Of a stretch of 64,000 nt of DNA, positions 948 through 63,728 are shown one piece after another. The notes beneath the pieces are model-generated. The model did not search any database. It had not been told where the DNA came from and was given only the letters and a program-made list of their open reading frames with translations. The first letter of the stretch is position 1, and every line of letters begins with the position of its first letter. The stretch spans positions 2,852,001 through 2,916,000 of the forward strand of contig NZ_CP091786.1 of the NCBI RefSeq assembly GCF_022024015.1, in the 5' to 3' direction. The position numbers and the translations under genes were made by a program. The DNA is from Prevotella sp. E9-3 (GTDB lineage: Bacteria; Bacteroidota; Bacteroidia; Bacteroidales; Bacteroidaceae).

Positions 948-2396
948 ATGGGAAAGATTATCATTGCCGGCATTGGTCCTGGCAGCAAGAACGACATCAC
1001 TCCCGCCGTACTCGAAGCAGTACGTCAGGCCGATGTGATTGTTGGCTACAAATACTACTTTCAGTTCATCGAACCGTTTGTGCCAGCAAATTGCGAGTGT
1101 ATCGACACTGGTATGAAAAAAGAGCGAGAGCGTGCCGAACATGCTTTCCGACTGGCAGAAGAAGGCAAGACGGTGGTGGTCATCTCTTCGGGCGATGCAG
1201 GTATCTACGGCATGGCGCCACTCATCTACGAGATGCAACAAGAACGGGCTGCCCTTCATTCTTCTGCCGACATCGAAGTTGTTTCTTTACCTGGCATCTC
1301 GGCTTTCCAAAAAGCTGCATCATTGCTGGGTGCTCCCATTGGCCACGACATGTGTATCATTTCCCTTAGCGATCTTATGACCCCATGGTCTGTCATTGAA
1401 CGGCGCATCAAGGCTGCAGCCGTCGGCGATTTCGTAACAGCCATTTATAATCCGAAATCGCACGGACGCTATTGGCAACTATACCGTCTGCAAGAGTTGT
1501 TTCTGCAGGAGCGTAGTGCCAACACCCCAGTGGGCTATGTACGTCAGGCAGGCCGCGAAGAGCAGGAAGTGAAACTGACAACCCTCGGTGATTTTGACCC
1601 GGAAGATGTAGATATGTTTACCGTTGTACTGATTGGCAATTCGCAGTCGTACATAAGCCTCACCCCCGCCCCCTCTCCAAAGGACGAGGGGCGTAAGATC
1701 TTTATTACACCACGCGGGTACTACCGAGAGGAGAAGCAGGAAGACGTAAAGCCCGGCCAGTCTATCATGATGGAAAGCTTCCGCACGATACGTTCCGAGA
1801 TGCAACATCCTGATGTGCCAACGTGGCGTCTATGGCCGTTGCTGCACGCCATTCATACCACGGTTGACTTCGGCATGGAAGAGTGTCTTTGGATGGATGA
1901 ACGTGCTACGGAGATACTATATAAAAAGGTGGTTGACGGCAGTCTGAAACATATCGTTACCGACGTCACGATGGCTGCCAGCGGTATCCGTAAGGGGGCT
2001 TTGGAGCGACTTGGCATCGAGGTACATTGTTACATCAACGACCCTCGTTCCAAGCAGATGGCAGACGAGAAAGGCATCACTCGCAGTCAAGCCTGCATGC
2101 AACTGGCAGCGGAGGAATACCCAGAGGCGTTCTATGTGGTGGGCAATGCGCCAACGGCACTCTTCGAGATATGCGACTTGGTACGTAAAGGCAAGATGCA
2201 TCCCGTGGGCATTATTGCCGCTCCCGTCGGTTTTGTGCATGTGTGCGAGAGCAAGCATGCCGTCAAGACGCTGCGCCACATTCCCAAACTGATTATCGAA
2301 GGGCGCAAAGGCGGCAGCAACCTCGCTGCCACACTCTGCAATGCCATTCTGACCTACGACGATGCAGAGCAGTTAACCCCTGGACGGGATCTATAG
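948..2396 (+). CDS. cobJ-cobH: Precorrin-3B C17-methyltransferase / precorrin-8X methylmutase fusion (CobJ-CobH, CbiH-CbiC)
   Basis: A bifunctional corrin-ring enzyme of 482 aa. Residues 1-255 are a SAM-dependent C17-methyltransferase that drives ring contraction (KIIIAGIGPGS at the N-terminus, SSGDAGIYGMA). Residues ~271-482 are the methylmutase that moves the C11 methyl group to C12 (MMESFRTI, DVTMAASGIRKG, VVGNAPTAL, IAAPVGFV). The ATG at 948 is chosen over an upstream TTG because MGKIIIAGIGPG is the usual N-terminus. Between the conserved GNSQSY and ITPRGY segments lies a 13-residue insert (SLTPAPSPKDEGR, 237-249) encoded by a palindromic repeat. It is the first gene of the operon, 33 bp before cobL. 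Confidence 0.95.
   Translation: MGKIIIAGIGPGSKNDITPAVLEAVRQADVIVGYKYYFQFIEPFVPANCECIDTGMKKERERAEHAFRLAEEGKTVVVISSGDAGIYGMAPLIYEMQQERAALHSSADIEVVSLPGISAFQKAASLLGAPIGHDMCIISLSDLMTPWSVIERRIKAAAVGDFVTAIYNPKSHGRYWQLYRLQELFLQERSANTPVGYVRQAGREEQEVKLTTLGDFDPEDVDMFTVVLIGNSQSYISLTPAPSPKDEGRKIFITPRGYYREEKQEDVKPGQSIMMESFRTIRSEMQHPDVPTWRLWPLLHAIHTTVDFGMEECLWMDERATEILYKKVVDGSLKHIVTDVTMAASGIRKGALERLGIEVHCYINDPRSKQMADEKGITRSQACMQLAAEEYPEAFYVVGNAPTALFEICDLVRKGKMHPVGIIAAPVGFVHVCESKHAVKTLRHIPKLIIEGRKGGSNLAATLCNAILTYDDAEQLTPGRDL
1655..1694 (-). repeat. 39-nt palindromic repeat, copy A, in frame inside cobJ-cobH
   Basis: CCCCTC at 1670-1675 pairs with GAGGGG at 1686-1691, extended by TCC/GGA with one bulged base, followed on the minus strand by a G-rich tail. 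It resembles the copies at 3051 and 63666. It adds about 13 codons between two conserved methyltransferase segments. Confidence 0.75.
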
Positions 2397-2429
2397 TTAG
2401 TGAATAATGATTAGTGAATAGTTGTTGCC

Positions 2430-3647
2430 ATGCAGTTCATCGTTATTGGTATCACAGACAATCCTCAACCGTTCTTTCCACCAGAAGTTTTGAACATCAT
2501 CAAGAACGGGAAAATATTTTCGGGTGGTCGTCGCCATCACGAGATTGTAGCCCCATTGCTGTCTGCCGATGCAGAATGGATTGACATCACCGTCCCTTTG
2601 GACAACGTCTTTGATCAGTACCGAACCCTTTCAACACGAGTTATCATCTTTGCCAGCGGCGACCCCTTGTTCTTCGGCTTCGCCAGCACCATCCGCCGCA
2701 AGATGCCTGATGCCGAGGTGGTGGTATATCCCACTTTCAATTCACTCCAACTGTTGGCCCACCGCCTGCTGATGCCCTATCACGACATGCGTATTGTCTC
2801 GCTCACAGGGCGTCCCTGGCCACAGTTCGACCGTGCGCTTATTGAACGAGCCGAGAAGATTGGCGTTCTAACAGACAAAGAGCATACCCCTGCCGTCATT
2901 GCACAGCGTATGCTGGAGTTTGGCTACAAGGACTATACCATGCACGTGGGCGAACATCTTGGCAACCCGCAATTAGAGAGAGTCAGCACATGCACACTCG
3001 AGGAGGCTGCAAAGATGGATTTCTCAACGCCCAACTGCGTGATACTATCTACTCCCCTCCATCGCAGGGAGGGGTTGGGGATGGGTCTCCCCGACAGCGC
3101 ATTTGCGCTACTCGACGGTCGTGAGAAGATGATCACCAAGATGCCTATCCGTTTGTTGACCCTTCAGGCTCTCGACCTCCCCCATCGCCATGTTCTATGG
3201 GATATTGGTGCCTGCACCGGAAGTGTCAGCATTGAGGCTCGTCTGCTGTTTCCGCACCTTCAGATAGAAGCCTTCGAGATACGTCCTGAGTGTGAGGCCA
3301 TCATTCAAGAAAACACACATCGCTTTGGTGCTCCAGGCATCAACATCCACATCGGCGACTTCCTGAAGTACGACCTCTCACCTCTCACTTCCCCCGACGC
3401 CGTCTTCATCGGCGGACATGGTGGTCATCTGAAAGCAATCATGGAAAAGGTGCTGACCGTATTGGCCGACGACGGTATCATCGTATTCAATAGCGTCACT
3501 TCCCCAAAGGTACCTACCAATAGTCGTGCGCTCTGGGACGAGGCCTGCCGGGACTTAGGACTTCGACAGGGAGAGCCGCTCCATATTCATCTCAACGACT
3601 ATAATCCTATAGACATACTAACCGCATCTAAATCACATATACAATGA
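2430..3647 (+). CDS. cobL: Precorrin-6Y C5,15-methyltransferase, decarboxylating (CbiE-CbiT fusion)
   Basis: A 405-aa CobL-type fusion. Residues 1-205 resemble CbiE (FASGDPLFFGFAS, VSLTGRPW), which methylates C5. Residues ~235-405 resemble CbiT, a Rossmann methyltransferase for C15 methylation and decarboxylation, with the SAM loop DIGACTGSVS near 256 and DAVFIGGHGGH. The linker, normally short, carries a 39-nt palindromic repeat translated as TPLHRREGLGMGL. The stop codon overlaps the start of the next gene (ATGA at 3644), pointing to translational coupling. The 33 bp upstream spacer contains a short repeated TTAGTGAATA motif. Confidence 0.95.
   Translation: MQFIVIGITDNPQPFFPPEVLNIIKNGKIFSGGRRHHEIVAPLLSADAEWIDITVPLDNVFDQYRTLSTRVIIFASGDPLFFGFASTIRRKMPDAEVVVYPTFNSLQLLAHRLLMPYHDMRIVSLTGRPWPQFDRALIERAEKIGVLTDKEHTPAVIAQRMLEFGYKDYTMHVGEHLGNPQLERVSTCTLEEAAKMDFSTPNCVILSTPLHRREGLGMGLPDSAFALLDGREKMITKMPIRLLTLQALDLPHRHVLWDIGACTGSVSIEARLLFPHLQIEAFEIRPECEAIIQENTHRFGAPGINIHIGDFLKYDLSPLTSPDAVFIGGHGGHLKAIMEKVLTVLADDGIIVFNSVTSPKVPTNSRALWDEACRDLGLRQGEPLHIHLNDYNPIDILTASKSHIQ
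3051..3089 (+). repeat. 39-nt palindromic repeat, copy B, in frame inside cobL
   Basis: CCCCTCC at 3054-3060 pairs with GGAGGGG at 3068-3074, followed by a G-rich tail ending GTCTC. It matches the intergenic copy at 63666-63704 (opposite strand) at 33 of 39 positions by my count. It lies exactly at the CbiE/CbiT domain junction. Confidence 0.85.
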
Positions 3648-4783
3648 GACAAGACATCGCCATCTACACACTGACGTCCGAACTGCACGACGAGCATGCC
3701 GTGACCACCATGACAACAGCTTTTCTGGAGAGTCTGGGAATAGACTATCTGCTGAAAGGCACTGACTATAGCGACTATGGCAGTCATGCACTCAACCTGA
3801 TATATGTCCGCACAGGTGGAACAGAAGGTATCTTCCGCCGTTTACTGCCAGAACTGCAAAGCAAGAGTCTCCGTCCGTTCTATCTGTTGACATCGGGGAA
3901 GAGCAATTCACTTGCCGCCTCAATGGAGATTCTGTCATTCCTGAGACTGCATCATATCGGTGGCGAGATTATACATGGCAACAGCGATTATATGACGCGT
4001 CGCATCCAGCTCTTATCAAAGGTTGAAGAAGCCAGAAAGTCTCTTTTTGGCACGCGGCTGGGCATCATTGGTGCACCTTCCGACTGGCTTATCTCCAGCC
4101 ATGCCGACAAAGCGAAGGTGAGAGAGAGGCTGGGAATAGAACTGATAGACATCCCCATGCAGGAACTGCTTGACGAGATTGGCGAGTCAAAACAGATATA
4201 CCAGGCACTGAAGGTGCTCATCAACAGATATCAACTGCGGGGCTTTACCCTTCGGTGTTTCGATCTTCTCACCACCGTAAAAGATACGGGGTGCATGGCT
4301 TTAGCCAAACTGAACAGTGAGGGATATGTGGCTGGTTGCGAGGGTGATGTGCCTGCCATGCTCTCAATGATGATTGTCCGTTCGTTGTTGGGGGTGTCAG
4401 GCTTTCAGGCCAACCCTTCGCGCATCGACCCGGAGACTGGCGAGATGCTCTTTGCTCATTGCACCATACCACTTGACATGGTAGAGCGCTATGAGCTCGA
4501 CACCCATTATGAGTCGGGCATCGGAACAGGCATACGCGGCTATATGAAAGAAGGCCCCGTCACCATCTTCAAGGTCTCGGGCAATCTCTCACGCCACTTC
4601 ATCGCTGAAGGTGAACTCGTCCGTAATGAGTCAAAGCCAGATCTTTGTCGCACCCAACAGGTGATACGTCTTGCAGACAAGAGTCTCACCAACAGTTATT
4701 TCCTCACAAATCCTATTGGCAATCATCATATCATCATGCCAGGACACTGCCAAGAACTCTTAGAACAGCTTTTAGTAAAATGA
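3644..4783 (+). CDS. L-fucose/L-arabinose isomerase-like protein embedded in the cobalamin operon
   Basis: A 379-aa protein resembling the L-fucose isomerase-related family (COG2407 type). The second half contains GYVAGCEGDVPAML, with E233 and D235 where family members carry metal-binding acids, then ANPSRIDPETGEMLFAHC and a C-terminal GNHHIIMPGHC that recalls the catalytic His segment. The first half looks like the family's two Rossmann-like domains (LGIIGAPSDWL at ~135). It overlaps cobL and cbiG-cobM by ATGA on each side, so it is translated with the corrin enzymes. No step of the known anaerobic pathway needs a sugar isomerase, and its role is unknown. The fold assignment is fairly secure; the substrate is not. 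Confidence 0.75.
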   Translation: MRQDIAIYTLTSELHDEHAVTTMTTAFLESLGIDYLLKGTDYSDYGSHALNLIYVRTGGTEGIFRRLLPELQSKSLRPFYLLTSGKSNSLAASMEILSFLRLHHIGGEIIHGNSDYMTRRIQLLSKVEEARKSLFGTRLGIIGAPSDWLISSHADKAKVRERLGIELIDIPMQELLDEIGESKQIYQALKVLINRYQLRGFTLRCFDLLTTVKDTGCMALAKLNSEGYVAGCEGDVPAMLSMMIVRSLLGVSGFQANPSRIDPETGEMLFAHCTIPLDMVERYELDTHYESGIGTGIRGYMKEGPVTIFKVSGNLSRHFIAEGELVRNESKPDLCRTQQVIRLADKSLTNSYFLTNPIGNHHIIMPGHCQELLEQLLVK

Positions 4784-6558
4784 ACAGAATTGCCATCATA
4801 CCAATAAGCGAGGCAGGCTGTGCCATCGCTGACACCTTGCAACAACATTTCCCCTCGGCCGACACCGTGAGTCGCAATTCAGTTGCGACATATTGGAACA
4901 ACTACGACGCCTTCGTGTTCATCGGTGCCATGGGCATCTGCGTGCGCACCATCGCTCCCTGTATCGAAGACAAGCACAGTGATCCCGCCGTTGTTTGTAT
5001 TGATTCCATGGGCCAGCATGTCATCTCTGTTCTCTCTGGTCATATAGGCGGTGCCAACGACCTGACGCGTCAATTGTCGGCCTTCCTTGGTGCCCATGCG
5101 GTCATCACCACCCAGAGCGACTGTGCCGGACTGTGGGCGCTCGACACACTCAGCGACCGCTTTCAGTGGCCCATCGCCAGCAATAACGAGGATATGAACG
5201 ACTGCATCTTTGCCTTTGTCAACCGCAAGCCTACGGCTCTACTGCTGGAAGCGCGCGATGAGGGCACCGATTATTTAGAGTCTACCAAGCCCGACCATGT
5301 CACCATCATCCACAATATCAGCGAAGCCGACCCACAGAAATACAAGTTGCTGATTTTAGTATCTCCTTTCATCCGCAATGCACCCGATGGGATGCTCAAA
5401 CTTCATTTTGTTCCCATGATAGGAACCATCGGCTTCGGACTGGCCCATCATCCCGACAACTACCATCAGATAAAAGAAGAGATTGACGAGGCTTTTGCTA
5501 ATCATGGCATCCTGCCTTGCTCCCACCGCTATTGCACCATCGATGTGAAAGCCGATGAACCCTTTGTCAAACTACTCCAAGAGGATTATAAAGCTGAAGT
5601 CGTGTTCTTTACAGCCGATGAGTTGGCAATGATTGAGGTGCCCAACCCGAGCACTACTGTGATGAAACACGTGGGTACGCCCAGCGTCTGCGAGGCAGCA
5701 TCCATTCTGGGTTCTAACCACGGTCAACTCGTTGTTCCTAAGATAAAAGGCAAGAACTGGACAGCTGCGCTGGCCATTGACCAGAAGTATCTTAGACGGA
5801 AACTGGGCTTCATCGAAATTGTCGGTGCCGGTCCTGGCGATCCCGATTTAATAAGTGTGCGAGGACGGAAGATGCTGGAGCGTGCCGATTTAATTCTCTA
5901 TGCCGGATCGCTGGTACCCAAGGCATTGACAGAATGCCATAAGTCTGGTGCCGTGGTGCGTTCGTCGGCCGATATGAATCTTGAGGAACAATGCGCTTTG
6001 ATAAAGGAGCACTACGACCGGGGGCACTTCATCGTACGTCTGCATACCGGCGACCCCTGCATCTTCGGTGCCATACAGGAACAGATGGCTTTCTTCGATG
6101 CTCACCACATGCGCTATCATATCACCCCCGGCATCTCATCGTTCCTGGCTGCCGCTGCCGAACTGCAAAGTCAGTTCACCATCCCCGAGCGCTGTCAGAC
6201 CATCATCCTCACCCGTGGCGAAGGGCGCACGCCGATGCCCGAGAAGGAACAGCTACACCTGTTGGCCCGTTCACAATCTACCATGTGTATCTTCCTCTCT
6301 GCCGCCATTGTCGATGATGTGCAGCGCGAACTGCTTCAGGAATATCCAGAAGACACCCCCGTTGCCGCCTGCTACCATCTCACCTGGCCCGACCAGAAAA
6401 TCTATCGCGGCACACTGAAGAATCTTGCCAAGATTGTTCACGACAACCACCTCACACTTACCACTATGCTGGTGGTAGGAGAGGCTATTGACAACCGTCA
6501 TGGACTATCTGCTCTTTACGACAAGCACTTCACTCATCTATTCCGCAAAGGAGAGTGA
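4780..6558 (+). CDS. cbiG-cobM: Cobalt-precorrin 5A hydrolase / precorrin-4 C11-methyltransferase fusion (CbiG-CobM)
   Basis: A bifunctional enzyme of 592 aa. Residues 1-345 match CbiG, which opens the lactone ring of cobalt-precorrin 5A and releases acetaldehyde (FIGAMGICVRTIAP, VLSGHIGGANDLTRQ, then the C-terminal part with GTPSVCEAASI). Residues ~346-592 match CobM/CbiF (EIVGAGPGDPDLISVRG, YAGSLVP, LHTGDPCIFGA, ITPGISSFLAAAA). The ATG at 4780 overlaps the previous stop as ATGA; an upstream in-frame ATG at 4645 lies inside the preceding gene and is rejected. CbiG is a marker of the early-cobalt, oxygen-independent route. This gene ends the first block of the operon. Confidence 0.95.
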   Translation: MNRIAIIPISEAGCAIADTLQQHFPSADTVSRNSVATYWNNYDAFVFIGAMGICVRTIAPCIEDKHSDPAVVCIDSMGQHVISVLSGHIGGANDLTRQLSAFLGAHAVITTQSDCAGLWALDTLSDRFQWPIASNNEDMNDCIFAFVNRKPTALLLEARDEGTDYLESTKPDHVTIIHNISEADPQKYKLLILVSPFIRNAPDGMLKLHFVPMIGTIGFGLAHHPDNYHQIKEEIDEAFANHGILPCSHRYCTIDVKADEPFVKLLQEDYKAEVVFFTADELAMIEVPNPSTTVMKHVGTPSVCEAASILGSNHGQLVVPKIKGKNWTAALAIDQKYLRRKLGFIEIVGAGPGDPDLISVRGRKMLERADLILYAGSLVPKALTECHKSGAVVRSSADMNLEEQCALIKEHYDRGHFIVRLHTGDPCIFGAIQEQMAFFDAHHMRYHITPGISSFLAAAAELQSQFTIPERCQTIILTRGEGRTPMPEKEQLHLLARSQSTMCIFLSAAIVDDVQRELLQEYPEDTPVAACYHLTWPDQKIYRGTLKNLAKIVHDNHLTLTTMLVVGEAIDNRHGLSALYDKHFTHLFRKGE

Positions 6559-6665
6559 ATTCTTGCATATTCATTCAGTTTATTTTTCGAAAATCAAGAC
6601 AAATAAAAATCGCAAACTAGAACAGCGAAACAACGAAAATTCACCTTTTTGTAATAAAAACGGCT

Positions 6666-6811
6666 GTTATACCGCAATAAAATAAGTCTTATACTGCAGT
6701 TATTTAATTCCTATACCTCAATCTAAGTTCAATTGAGATATAACTGAATGGTGGTTGCAATATAGTTTTCATTCAGTTGCGGTATAACCACCGTTCTATT
6801 GCAGGCGGTAT
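6666..6811. repeat. Seven-unit degenerate array, 22 bp period, with orientation switch
   Basis: TATACCGCA-type cores start at 6668, 6690 and 6712 (22 bp apart). After an inversion centre near 6726 (CTCAAT/ATTGAG), the complementary form TTGmrrTATA starts at 6733, 6755 and 6777, with a weaker unit at 6799 (again 22 bp apart). GTTATACCGCAA (6666-6677) is the perfect reverse complement of TTGCGGTATAAC (6777-6788). Confidence 0.75.
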
Positions 6812-6877
6812 TCAGGGGGAATGAAGGGAAAAGAAACGCCCTTTTTGAGTTACACAATCGTAAATGGTTGATGTTCA

Positions 6878-6904
6878 GTAAGTTGCGAATAATTCGCAAC
6901 TTAC
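6878..6904. other. Perfect 12 bp inverted repeat (hairpin or operator)
   Basis: GTAAGTTGCGAA at 6878-6889 and TTCGCAACTTAC at 6893-6904 are exact complements with a 3-nt loop. No T-run follows on either strand, so it is not a typical terminator. It lies 150-170 bp before the cobK promoter and could be an operator or an RNA structure. Confidence 0.7.
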
Positions 6905-7050
6905 ACTACAATCGCTCATATTTCGCACAGAGAAGTCCAAAGTAGGAGTTGGTGAATTCCGCGCGATTCTCACGCGCTTTAACATCATAAATATGCAGTA
7001 AGAAAGTGCATATATATAAAGATTTTGATGAACTATCTTATGGATAATAG

Positions 7051-7082
7051 TTTGTCTATTCCGAGAGATTTTATTAACTTTG
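7051..7082 (+). promoter_or_regulatory. Bacteroidetes-type promoter of cobK-cbiD
   Basis: TTTG at 7051-7054, 20 bp, then TAACTTTG at 7075-7082: a full consensus match. The ATG at 7113 is 30 nt downstream, a normal leader length. Confidence 0.8.
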
Positions 7083-7112
7083 CCACACATTCTTAATGCA
7101 AACAACAAAAAC

Positions 7113-8990
7113 ATGATACTGGTATTCGGCGGTACAACGGAAGGGAGAAAAGCAGCTGAGGTGCTGGAGGAAAGCGGCTCACCTTTTTTCTATAGTACGA
7201 AGACAGGCGAACAGGAATTGTCACTTCATCACGGGCAACGTATAGACGGAGCACTCGATGCGGCGGCAATGAAGGCATTCTGCATGGAGAATGACATCCG
7301 ACTGATTGTTGATGCTGCCCACCCTTTTGCCTCAATGCTGCACCAGACCATCGCTCAAGTGGCCCAACAGTTGGACCTATCCGTTGTCCGTTTCGAACGT
7401 ATCTATCCCCCTCGCCAAGAGGACATCGTCTGGATAGACGACTACGCTGAACTGCCCTCAATACTACCTCCTCATTCTTCTTTGTTAGCCACGACAGGCG
7501 TCCAGAGCATCAGCAAACTGAAACCGCTGGAGGTCAACAAAGGTATCAAGGTGTATTACCGCATTCTGGAACGGGAATCGTCGATAGCCTCAGCCTTAAA
7601 ACAAGGAGCAACGAAAGAGCAGCTGTGCTATTATACGAACCCAAAGGACATTCCCGTCAAAGCAGAAGCTATTCTGCTGAAGGAAAGTGGGACAACAGGC
7701 GGTTTTGCAGAGAAAGTAGAGGCGGCCAAAGCTCAAGGCATGAGAATTATTGCCCTGAAGCGCCCCGCCATGCCGGCAATGTTTATAACCGTAAATGGCC
7801 CGTATGGACTTCGCAGGACTGTAGAAAAGCTACTGCCAGAGTTCTTTCCTTTGCACAGCGGATTGACCACCGGCACCTGTGCTACAGCAGCAACAGTAGC
7901 CGCAATAATACAGTTACGGGAAGAAGCACAGCCCACACAGTTGCCACTTCCCACAGAGGTACCGGTTGAACTGCCCAACGGTGAAACCATCATGGTGCCA
8001 ATAGGGTATGGAGATGGATATGCTTATTGTAAAAAGGAGGCTGGCGACGACCCTGACGTGACGAATGGTATTGAGGTGAGAGCCTACGCAAAGACCAACC
8101 CGGAAGTCCTACCTTCGGGAGAGGTTGGAGGAAGACCCTTTCTCCATGTGGGGGCATGGGAAATAGTGGCGGGTGAAGGCATCGGACACTTCACCGTGCC
8201 GGGATTCGACTACCCACCGGGTGAACCAGCCATCAACAAAGGACCAAGAGAGATGCTAAGAAGAAACTTGGCCCACCCCCTCCTAAGGGGAGGGAATCCT
8301 TTTGAGTTACACGGTCTAACTGAGATATCTCCCCTCCCCTCGGGAGGGGCTGGAGGTAGGCTTCTCCTCTCCATCCCCAATGGTGCCGAAATAGCCCGCA
8401 AGACTTTCAACCCCCGATTAGGCATTGAAGGAGGCATCTCGATTATTGGCGTCAGCGGTATCGTTAAACCTTTCAGCGAGGAAGCCTTCATCGGTTCAAT
8501 CCGCAAATGCATGGTAGTAGCAAAAGCCAGTGGAACCTGTCGGGTTGTCATAAACAGTGGCGGAAAGAGTGAGCGGTTTGTGAAGGCGCTCTATCCCACG
8601 CTACCCCAACAGGCCTTTGTGGAGTATGGCAACTACATTGGCGAGACTCTGAAAATTGCCAGTGAACTGAACATTCCACGCATCACCCTCGGAGTAATGC
8701 TGGGCAAAGCAGTAAAACTGGCAGCAGGCCATTTAGACACGCATAGTAAGAAAGCTACTATGGACCTGCAGTTTATTGCCCAGATGCTGAAAGAGGCCAA
8801 TATCAGTATCGACCTGAATGGCATCACACTGGCAAGGGAGCTATGGGAAAGGATTCCGGCCAACCAACTGAAAGACTTCACACAAACCGTCATCGGCCAC
8901 TGTCGTAAGCATTGCGCTCCACTACTGCCAAAAGGTGAGCTCACCATTTTACTGATAGATGACAACGGACAAATATTCGGGAACTCATAA
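7113..8990 (+). CDS. cobK-cbiD: Precorrin-6A reductase / cobalt-precorrin-5B C1-methyltransferase fusion (CobK-CbiD)
   Basis: A 625-aa fusion. Residues 1-245 are the NAD(P)H-dependent precorrin-6A reductase CobK/CbiJ (ILVFGGTTEGRKAAE, DAAHPFA, TTGVQS). Residues ~248-625 are CbiD, the C1-methyltransferase of the anaerobic pathway (HSGLTTGTCATAA, DDPDVTNG, VAGEGIGHFT, PPGEPAINKGPREM, FNPRLGIEGGISIIG). The ATG at 7113 is chosen because MILVFGGTTEGR is the usual start. CbiD carries extra sequence at two places, residues ~331-342 and ~387-418, both made of palindromic repeats; the second lies between the PREM helix and SIPNGAE. The gene has its own promoter and leads into the HAD gene 23 bp on. 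Confidence 0.94.
   Translation: MILVFGGTTEGRKAAEVLEESGSPFFYSTKTGEQELSLHHGQRIDGALDAAAMKAFCMENDIRLIVDAAHPFASMLHQTIAQVAQQLDLSVVRFERIYPPRQEDIVWIDDYAELPSILPPHSSLLATTGVQSISKLKPLEVNKGIKVYYRILERESSIASALKQGATKEQLCYYTNPKDIPVKAEAILLKESGTTGGFAEKVEAAKAQGMRIIALKRPAMPAMFITVNGPYGLRRTVEKLLPEFFPLHSGLTTGTCATAATVAAIIQLREEAQPTQLPLPTEVPVELPNGETIMVPIGYGDGYAYCKKEAGDDPDVTNGIEVRAYAKTNPEVLPSGEVGGRPFLHVGAWEIVAGEGIGHFTVPGFDYPPGEPAINKGPREMLRRNLAHPLLRGGNPFELHGLTEISPLPSGGAGGRLLLSIPNGAEIARKTFNPRLGIEGGISIIGVSGIVKPFSEEAFIGSIRKCMVVAKASGTCRVVINSGGKSERFVKALYPTLPQQAFVEYGNYIGETLKIASELNIPRITLGVMLGKAVKLAAGHLDTHSKKATMDLQFIAQMLKEANISIDLNGITLARELWERIPANQLKDFTQTVIGHCRKHCAPLLPKGELTILLIDDNGQIFGNS
8106..8137 (+). repeat. Palindromic-repeat fragment, copy C0, inside cbiD
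   Basis: The stretch around CTTCGGGAGAGGTTGGAGG parallels CCTCGGGAGGGGCTGGAGG in the copy at 8328. The translations LPSGEVGGR and LPSGGAGGR are alike. It sits between the conserved EVRAYAK and WEIVAGEGIG segments. Confidence 0.6.
8274..8299 (+). repeat. Palindromic-repeat copy C1, inside cbiD
   Basis: CCCTCC at 8278-8283 pairs with GGAGGG at 8289-8294. It forms, with copy C2 and a 30 bp linker, one ~95 bp insertion in the CbiD coding region. The linker contains GAGTTACAC, also present at 6847-6855 in the upstream gap. Confidence 0.65.
8328..8366 (+). repeat. 39-nt palindromic repeat, copy C2, in frame inside cbiD
   Basis: CCCCTCCC at 8331-8338 pairs perfectly with GGGAGGGG at 8342-8349 over a 3-nt loop, followed by a G-rich tail and CTTCTC. 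It has the length, layout and orientation of copy B in cobL. Confidence 0.8.
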
Positions 8991-29596: not shown

Positions 29597-31006
29597 TTAC
29601 TCATACGCACCCATGCGCAGACGGTCCACCTCTTCCTCAGTGAGGTAACGCCAGTCGCCACGACGCAGATTCTTCTTGGTCAGGCCGGCAAACTGTACAC
29701 GGTCGAGCTTGGTAACCTTATATCCAAGACTCTCAAAGATACGACGCACAATACGGTTCTTTCCTGAATGAATCTCAATGCCAACCTGCTTCTTGTCAAC
29801 AGGATCAGCATATTCAATTGCATCTGCCTTGATTTCGCCATCATCGAGCATCACACCCTCAGCAATCTGCTGCAGGTCGTGAGCTGTCACGTTGCGGTCG
29901 GTATATACATGGTAAATCTTCTTTTTCAAGAACTTAGGATGTGTGAGCTTTGAAGCCAAATCACCATCGTTGGTGAGCAGAAGCACACCAGTAGTGTTGC
30001 GGTCCAGGCGACCTACAGGATAGATACGCTCGGGACAAGCGCCCTTCACCAAATCCATCACAGTCTTACGCTGCTGGGGATCCTCACTTGTAGTAACATA
30101 GTCTTTGGGCTTGTTCAGCAGCACATAGACTTTCTTCTCCAAAGAAACGGGATCATCGTGAAAGCGAACTACATCGGTACGCATCACCTTTGTTCCGAGT
30201 TCGGTAACCACCAGTCCGTTAACGGTTACCACACCTGCCTGGATGAACTCATCGGCTTCGCGACGGCTGCAAACGCCGGCATTGGCAAGGAACTTGTTCA
30301 AACGGATGGGCTCATTGGGATCGAAGTTCTGCTCTTTGTACTCAATGCGCTTCTTCATAGAGTACTTTGCATTGGGATCATAATCGGCAGTACGGGGACG
30401 GAAGCCGCCCTGACGCTGCTGACCATAACCGCCACGCTGCTGGTAACCGCCGCGCTGCTGACCGTAGCCACCACGCTGCTGACCGTAACCACCACGCTGC
30501 TGGTAACCGCCACGCTGCTGGTAGCCACCCTGCTGACGAGGCTGATAACCACCCTGACGAGGCTGATAGCCGCCCTGCTGACGGGGCTGATAGCCACCCT
30601 CACCCTGTCCATACTGGCGGGGAGCGTAACCTGTCTGGCCCTCAGCGCCTTCCTGATTATAGCGAGGGCGATAGCCGCCCTGAGGACGCTGTTGAAAACC
30701 GCCCTGAGGACGAGGCTGATAGCCACCCTGAGGACGCTGCTGATAATTGTTTGTACGAGGACGATAGCCAGTATGCTGAGCTGCGGGACTCTGCAAACCT
30801 GCTCCGAAGCCTTCGGGACGGAAACCGCCTTCGTCATCATTATGCTTATTGAAACTAGGACGTTCGTAGCCTGATGTGGCTGGACGCTGTCCGGTGTGAA
30901 TGCGCGGACGGGGTGAACGCCCTACAGGTCTAAATTCTTTCTGGAAACCTTCGCGGTCTTGTGCAGTGGACTGTTCCTCCTGCTTGTTTTCATTTTCAAA
31001 ATCCAT
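29597..31006 (-). CDS. rluB: RluB/RsuA-family pseudouridine synthase with long RGG/Q-rich N-terminal extension
   Basis: A 469-aa protein. Residues 1-225 are low complexity, built of GGY, QPRQ and [13 protein letters not shown] units rich in Arg, Gly, Gln and Tyr. Residues ~232-290 are an S4 RNA-binding domain ([22 protein letters not shown]). The rest is the pseudouridine synthase core, with catalytic D335 in [18 protein letters not shown] and the C-terminal [19 protein letters not shown]. The core fits the large-subunit 23S rRNA enzyme group (RluB/E/F); the precise target cannot be told. The extension resembles RGG boxes that bind RNA or form condensates. It heads a unit with asnS. Confidence 0.88.
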
Positions 31007-32697: not shown

Positions 32698-32931
32698 TCT
32701 TCGTTTTGAAGTAGCTTATCAAGTGTTATTCCTTGTAAGCGGTTGCAAAGGTACGGCGTTTTTTTGGAACCACCAAACATTTTCCAAACTTTTTTCATGT
32801 TTTCTTCAAAAAAAGTTCATTTTGCCTGTTTTTAGCCCATTTTCGGGTCTCAAACAAGCACTTTTCTTACTACAAACGGACTAGACACTAACTTCAAACT
32901 TACTGAACATTTTCCTCGATGAGCTGGATTT

Positions 32932-33041
32932 CTACCAAAAAGGTACTGGGGATCTACTCAAAAGGTACTAGGCTTCTACCTAAAAGGTACTGGCTTTCTA
33001 TCCAAAAGATACTGGGTATCGATCTCAAAGGCACAGGATAT
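32932..33041. repeat. Five-unit degenerate array, exact 22 bp period
   Basis: Units begin at 32932, 32954, 32976, 32998 and 33020. The consensus is roughly CTACCnAAAAGGTACTGGnnwT; the first four are close and the fifth is diverged. There are no spacers between units, so it is a tandem array and not CRISPR. Confidence 0.85.
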
Positions 33042-63662: not shown

Positions 63663-63665
63663 AAA

Positions 63666-63704
63666 GAGACTCTCCCCCTACCCCTCCCTGTGAGGGAGGG
63701 GAGT
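63666..63704 (-). repeat. 39-nt palindromic repeat, copy E, intergenic
   Basis: CCCCTCCC at 63681-63688 pairs perfectly with GGGAGGGG at 63694-63701. On the minus strand it has the same order as copy B in cobL (33 of 39 identical). It directly follows the peptidase stop codon. Confidence 0.85.
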
Positions 63705-63728
63705 AGATAGAAAAGTAACTTATTAATT

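Follow-up and report, generated by a model that had tools for sequence, protein, structure and literature searches.

Several described systems of small repeats and nucleases come close to the one considered here. In REPtrons, short imperfect palindromes with a conserved side sequence, the repetitive extragenic palindromic (REP) elements, are present dozens of times, both alone and paired in inverted orientation. They flank a small gene that differs in type along with the palindrome, the REP-associated tyrosine transposase (RAYT, TnpA-REP), which is a Y1 HUH enzyme. Palindromic repeats tagged by GTAG or CGTC are, in the accessible part of PMC3733652, reported to lie partly inside open reading frames (ORFs), those with GTAG being tied to RAYTs. 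Rickettsia palindromic elements, of about 150 bp, lie in frame within unrelated genes of metabolism and persist there in translated form, according to the available portion of PMC10969869, and the accessible text of PMC9403480 assigns a DUF559-containing gene to the EDxHD (Vsr-like) family of homing endonucleases in a section on intein-containing genes. Here we analyse a stretch of 64,000 nucleotides (the window) from Prevotella sp. E9-3, which covers 2.852-2.916 Mb of a single-contig genome of 3.73 Mb that is 99.9% complete, and where palindromes stand in frame inside three cobalamin genes. Judging from sequence, these palindromes probably derive from the ends of a mobile element with a small DUF559 nuclease at its centre, as non-autonomous copies in the manner of REPs.

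The palindrome unit is about 42 nt long and reads YACTCCCCTCC-loop-GGAGGGGTYGGGGGWGRGTCT, a YACT foot preceding the stem, GGAGGGG closing it and a G-rich tail following (GGGGGWGRGTCT; repeat alignments A1 and A2), and it occurs in both orientations. An earlier, sequence-only reading of the window had taken the unit as exactly 39 nt, or 13 codons, which did not hold. The palindromes share with REPtrons all the features given above, including a small flanked gene whose type co-varies with that of the repeat; they differ in that the flanked gene encodes a DUF559 nuclease of the PD-(D/E)XK type and not a Y1 HUH transposase, in that the hairpin foot has no 5' GTAG/CGTC tag, and in that many copies are intragenic and the nuclease itself lies in frame within host genes. 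The tagged repeats are likewise palindromic and partly intragenic, with the tags missing here, and no words starting with GGAG or CCCTCC occur in the accessible text of the paper that describes them (PMC3733652).

The sequence-only reading had compared the repeats with the Rickettsia elements. The comparison stands for in-frame, translated palindromes in unrelated metabolic genes and fails for length and for the linked, probably mobilising nuclease gene, which set the two apart by description; membership of the Rickettsia family is unlikely. With EDxHD homing endonucleases, for example I-Bth0305I, there are in common the nuclease superfamily, the retained active-site residues and the location in conserved genes, whereas here no intron or intein part is evident, the chimera is unspliced as far as can be seen from its sequence, and REP-like palindromes that also spread alone flank the gene. 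The DUF559 nuclease with its similar flanking repeats had not figured in the earlier reading at all.

One palindrome copy sits in a DegT aminotransferase gene adjoining an in-frame DUF559, and we therefore surveyed this domain, which is of PD-(D/E)XK type and related to Vsr and to the EDxHD homing endonucleases. The own genome has five DUF559 (PF04480) matches, one of them partial; across the 60 genomes of the own and related set 28 have the domain, as do 78 of the 148 sampled from the phylum. For a flank test, 300 nt on each side of DUF559 were compared as inverted repeats at 36 of the 59 matches of the own and related set (partial, contig-edge and unfetched ones excluded) and at 24 of the 29 newly found loci of the phylum set (four cut by a contig edge, one excluded beforehand). 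At 27 of the 36 and 17 of the 24 loci the flanks scored above the 99th percentile of 711 control genes. Against mismatched flanks, taken from DUF559 loci of other genomes (95th percentile 43), 20 of 36 loci exceed, and this control is stricter because repeat types are shared. The flanking repeats are hairpins, paired in inverted orientation, whose G-rich tails face outward; the sequence of the hairpin varies by locus. DUF559 identity correlates with the likeness of the repeats (Spearman 0.546, Mantel p=0.0005; 28 loci, 365 pairs), and DUF559 is found in 14 of the 15 genomes with at least 20 palindromes compared with 14 of the 45 with fewer than 20 (Fisher p=3.5e-5).

These data bear directly on the possibility that a Y1 tyrosine transposase (RAYT) moves the repeats, which would then be ordinary REPs, the DUF559 genes being passengers that landed between them. 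The hairpins with conserved side sequence are REP-like, Y1 matches exist in 39 of the 60 genomes, and a TnpA-Y1 subclass, 2.6, is described in the accessible part of PMC6006769 as mostly from Bacteroidetes and flanked by atypical structures. Nevertheless, a search for Y1/RAYT transposase (PF01797), positive in 5 of 14 control genomes, gave no match in the own genome, nor is there one in the palindrome-rich genomes G003, G019, G026, G023 and G008; Y1 has no positive correlation with palindrome count over the 60 genomes (rho -0.20), the GTAG tag is missing at the 5' foot, and it is the nuclease that co-varies with the repeat. We consider this alternative unlikely.

Other palindromes accompany DUF559 too. 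The own DUF559 at 298288 (L186:2738-4480, joined to a SufBD-type frame) and that of genome G031 (L176) share a different palindrome family (CCCCCTAA..TTAGGGGG); the flanking repeat common to these two genomes is an unrelated palindrome (GCCCCCTAAGTTAGGGGG...). Several DUF559-palindrome types thus exist in one genome, since the 298288 locus has a separate family.

DUF559 lies in frame, with host matches on both sides, in leuS of eight genomes at two sites, in metH (two cases), recG (two cases), an ABC-F ATPase, HsdR and DegT aminotransferase (two cases), and in the frames that we read palindrome-derived peptides stand on one or both sides of the embedded domain. The interrupted leuS encodes the only LeuRS above the family cut-off in all eight genomes (99-100% complete), the matches below the cut-off resembling other class I synthetases, and for this reason the chimeric LeuRS should work, or undergo a processing that is invisible in the sequence. 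At two leuS loci, L208 and L210, the palindromes must be decayed or lost, since these failed the DNA flank test. The reading frame is open through the embedded inserts. In contrast to group I introns and inteins, the element shows no sign of being spliced out; no intein family came up when 18 ORFs were scanned with Pfam (cut-off 1e-8), no dedicated intron search having been made. An alignment (A3) of 31 DUF559 copies, of which 29 are embedded or fused, shows E16, QH35-36, D44, E55-x-D57-G, H61 and D70 as invariant; acidic, His and Arg residues are conserved throughout, and the nuclease motifs are intact in embedded copies. The DUF559 profile matches PDB entry 3r3p, 'Mobile intron protein', at 1e-6, a structure that we take to be I-Bth0305I.

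We did not count as internal insertions the N-terminal joins with gmk, argB, ispF, sufD and rnhA frames (named via Pfam, where given, as Guanylate_kin, AA_kinase, YgbB and SufBD), which could be a DUF559 gene running into the next gene. The hosts of the rnhA-like L197 and the GNAT-like L193 are named by reading only, Pfam at 1e-8 having given no host domain. The DegT-type aminotransferase of the own genome (L148:1669-3252, at 139.7-141.3 kb) is a 528-aa frame with palindrome and DUF559 both in frame, and G001 (L198) has a similar DegT chimera, seemingly at a different position.

Within the window we recognise six copies of the palindrome. Each was scored by local alignment with the other REP copies of the own genome against a background of 600 random window 50-mers, and, named by the starts first given for them, they reach 68 (1655), 70 (3051), 34 (8106), 36 (8274), 62 (8328) and 76 (63666) with a background maximum of 30, which bears out the proposal that they form a real family. 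A covariance model, R1, recovers four of the six at E<1e-3; the five cobalamin copies comprise three that are well preserved and the decayed ones at 8106 and 8274, which escape it. pLDDT below is the predicted local distance difference test of AlphaFold models.

1654..1696, minus strand: palindrome with the G-tail leftward, read as SLTPAPSPKDEGRK between the two domains of cobJ-cobH (R1 27.1 bits, score 68)
3049..3090, plus strand: palindrome in the cobL interdomain linker, read as STPLHRREGLGMGLPD (R1 60.6 bits)
8107..8141, plus strand: decayed copy in a CbiD loop (score 34; pLDDT 60 for aa 331-340)
8271..8294, minus strand: decayed copy, left half of an inverted pair in the second CbiD loop (score 36)
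8326..8365, plus strand: well preserved copy, right half of the pair, read as SPLPSGGAGGRLL (R1 27.0 bits, score 62)
63665..63706, minus strand: intergenic copy of the CTCACAG-loop subfamily (R1 65.4 bits, score 76)

Among the repeats that flank DUF559 genes, the three cbiD copies are closest to that of the own locus at 3179414 (G000:3179414): the right half of the pair equals it at 33 of 35 aligned bases (match score 62), and the two decayed copies, at 8107-8141 and 8271-8294, match it at score 34 each. The cobJ-cobH copy is closest to the repeat beside the DUF559 gene at 3399446 (G000:3399446, match score 62). A search for known RNA families gave a single sub-threshold Rfam match, elsewhere in the first 10 kb, and this candidate was rejected.

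The three host genes, which resemble those of rumen Prevotella / Xylanibacter brevis, are as follows.

948..2396, plus strand: host gene 1, fused cobJ-cobH, tetrapyrrole methylase and precorrin-8X methylmutase CbiC, from ORF and Pfam (PF00590 at aa 3-216, PF02570 at aa 273-469, the insert between them)
2430..3647, plus strand: host gene 2, cobL-like (CbiE/CbiT-type), from ORF and PF00590; the name cobL is that of the sequence-only reading, the Pfam match covering the methylase domain alone
7113..8990, plus strand: host gene 3, fused cobK-cbiD (PF02571 at aa 2-222, PF01888 at aa 248-539)

That the palindromes sit in frame at loops and linkers, as had been proposed, agrees both with gaps in homologues and with predicted structure. 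The copies coincide with the least confident loops of the AlphaFold models: in CobK-CbiD (mean pLDDT 88) the sole segment below 50 is 393-411, inside the second loop, with an average of 60 for the block 331-340; in CobL (mean pLDDT 73) the longest segment below 50 is 213-236, overlapping that part of the interdomain linker which the palindrome encodes, the other being 127-129.

Homologues were taken from named genomes, the relatives' loci being the best 80 of 319 cobL loci. The cobJ-cobH site is readable in 76 of the 80 relatives and is empty (54 nt) in 71 of them; the filled site measures 87 nt in four relatives (L017, L046, L078, L080) and 81 nt in a fifth (L028). In the window it is likewise 87 nt long, which is 33 nt (11 codons) more than the empty site; the frame is kept, and by our own reading about 42 nt stand in place of about 9 nt. 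A look for empty sites had been named as a check; L016 is empty beside the filled L017. Three of the 71 relatives with empty sites (L052, L071, L088) have a palindrome-like peptide about 7 residues downstream. In gltB and dapF the palindrome peptide is missing from homologues at ten sites, one weaker copy per gene included; G008, alone among relatives, has different REP-like inserts at some of them. DapF has 313 aa against 268-278 aa in three relatives, five more homologues measuring 301-324 aa as stop-to-stop frames, some with their own loop sequence near one site, and GltB has 1575 aa against 1500-1523 aa in six full-length homologues. The refutation named beforehand, by distant homologues with identical extra residues, does not hold, and for cobJ-cobH, gltB and dapF the comparison with homologues marks the palindrome residues as insertions and not as ancestral sequence.

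The cobL linker with the palindrome is not clearly longer than those of homologues in an 81-sequence alignment, the palindrome replacing linker sequence, and among the 80 relatives R1 matches the same place in L016 and L017 only. Like the cobL linker, the CbiD loops are very variable, the loop of the 8107-8141 copy among them, and other lineages hold other repeat-derived or unrelated peptides there. The CobL linker of rumen Prevotella (L016-L095) shows many low-complexity or repeat-like peptides (FTLHSSL, LSPLTS, INDNSC and NPCNPC types), which suggests invasion of this one linker by several repeat families that are not related to one another. L018, L019, L028 and L048 have an inverted palindrome pair with tails outward in the same two CbiD loops, of different palindrome subtypes, as if the pair had been overwritten or reinserted in these lineages. 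In L035, L056, L070 and L082 (near 8195-8240) the palindrome model also matches elsewhere in cobL, at about codon 66.

The own genome contains at least 62 copies at E<1e-3, a lower bound obtained from 150 of 1161 first-look candidates scored. By hand tally, 23 of the 62 are inside ORFs with recognised domains, which answers the earlier call for a count of coding copies: six in gltB (glutamate synthase), two in dapF, four in two ABC permeases, two in PorE, three in the cobalamin genes. The genes for an OmpA-type protein, Mfa2, Vsr, a TonB receptor, YifB and the DegT aminotransferase hold one apiece. The special enrichment claimed for cobalamin genes dissolves at this scale; their cluster is one of several, because others are as dense or denser, with eight copies at 61.4-67.7 kb (dapF/gltB) and eight at 2.0093-2.0137 Mb (an efflux operon). 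In the Vsr endonuclease gene (L138:2066-2632, 2.3356 Mb of the own genome) the palindrome comes immediately after the Vsr domain.

We propose that the full element would be a DUF559 gene between two inverted palindromes with G-rich tails outward. The nuclease would cut DNA at or near a palindrome or a target, and repair would then copy the palindrome or the whole cassette to the cut site, as in homing; the ends may also travel alone, like REPs with RAYTs. What would let an insertion survive is that the GC-rich palindrome leaves about five of six frames open and codes for a short linker rich in Pro, Gly and Ser, and that at a surface loop or a domain junction the host protein may still fold. 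Mobilisation by the DUF559 nuclease, including cleavage and the choice of target, is what we infer from this arrangement. A broader statement we hold with evenly divided confidence: that REP-ended DUF559 cassettes invade coding genes, single-copy essential ones included, where they are left unspliced and translated through, with palindromic ends that would serve both as DNA recognition sites and as harmless linkers in almost any frame, that the cobalamin palindromes are solo ends, that leuS has been a recurrent target across Bacteroidota families, and that such a class is absent from the papers searched. In particular, no published link of DUF559 to palindromic repeats was found in the DUF559 literature as far as it was accessible, subscription journals lying mostly outside the search.

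One transfer can be seen, at the cobJ-cobH site. The 100-nt block that holds and follows the insert is 98% identical between L017 and the window, against 69-86% in other blocks; L017 and L016 are 92-100% identical in the other cobJ-cobH blocks and 62% in the insert block. This sequence comparison shows that one palindrome allele with about 100 nt of flanking host DNA was moved between species by recombination, and the tract looks as a homed allele would, without being proof of homing.

A number of results, however, weigh against a mobile element driven by DUF559. Ten divergent patches make up 10% of the 15-kb L016/L017 alignment and only two touch palindromes; ordinary recombination could explain the cobJ-cobH import, since its tract is not unique. 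At 13 close locus pairs flank divergence at palindromes is not clearly elevated, the mean percentile being 0.26 for six one-sided flanks and 0.42 for 18 shared flanks. The flank test was not passed by 9 of 36 and 7 of 24 loci, the latter including the leuS loci L208 and L210, and some cassettes are therefore decayed or without ends; its 711 control genes were taken from rumen Prevotella cobalamin loci, from different genomes than the DUF559 loci. The Mantel test ignores genome relatedness, and 14 of the 28 DUF559-bearing genomes hold fewer than 20 palindromes of the exact pattern. No clear cognate DUF559 gene exists in the own genome for the subfamily of the cobL and 63666 copies. The 62 palindrome cores are open in 5.0 of 6 frames compared with 3.8 for random 36-mers, but mononucleotide shuffles give 4.8, so that openness is mostly composition. 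Finally, 9 of 12 plasmid DUF559 loci of other phyla (12 of 43 records) lack such a pair.

Three broader ideas were dropped accordingly. Palindromes are not retained as conversion hot spots, the 13-pair test having given no clear rise in flank divergence and 8 of the 10 patches lying away from them, and only the single co-import is kept. Selection for frame-openness is abandoned because shuffles give an almost equal value, and flanking of DUF559 genes in general because of the 9 unflanked plasmid loci of the 12 from other phyla. Of the three plasmid loci that do have such repeats, one, from the cyanobacterium Pseudanabaena galeata (pPg_02, L300), has DUF559 between near-identical CCCTCTCC palindromes, all within a single coding sequence (4.9 kb, about 1621 residues).

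The frequent divergent patches of L016/L017, one of which carries the cobJ-cobH copy, together with the local clustering of palindrome copies, are what one would expect if the repeats spread passively and without an enzyme of their own, by homologous recombination, gene conversion and template switching among GC-rich stretches that resemble each other, DUF559 sharing their fate. Such an explanation leaves aside the new sites in unrelated genes, the inverted pairs round DUF559 far above control genes, the co-variation of nuclease and repeat, and DUF559 at two leuS sites; we regard it as rather improbable. A defence or repair module, where DUF559 would be a Vsr-like mismatch nuclease or one linked to methylation and the palindromes regulatory or recognition sites instead of mobile ends, strikes us as very improbable: regulation hardly accounts for the insertions in leuS, metH, recG and DegT or for the many metabolic genes with bare copies, even if some DUF559 insertions sit in restriction genes (L241, L243) and the DUF559/Vsr-like VsrA is, in the accessible part of PMC12907096, functionally tied to a cytosine methyltransferase in Caulobacter. 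The idea that the enzymes have had these residues from the start as functional linkers, with repeat likeness by GC-rich convergence, gains a little from the variable and not clearly lengthened cobL linker and can be practically dismissed, being refuted by homologues for cobJ-cobH (71 of 76 empty), gltB and dapF and at odds with near-identical repeats both within unrelated genes and in intergenic DNA.

The window also contains, at 30413-30763 and 32930-33039, an array of units of about 20 nt and an array of 22-nt units (AAAGGTACT), both unconnected with the palindromes.

If the mobile DUF559 element is the right explanation, the intragenic REP family of Bacteroidota would gain a partner enzyme, and DUF559 nucleases would have a role in mobility there. 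It would also stand between inteins and REPs as a form of selfish DNA that is in frame, unspliced and tolerated as a linker. The origin of new loops and inserted domains in conserved enzymes becomes testable, because an essential LeuRS that should still work is interrupted at two places among eight genomes. For annotation, Pro/Gly-rich peptides like LTPxPSPKGEGR in Bacteroidota proteins would be ends of such elements and not a protein signal.

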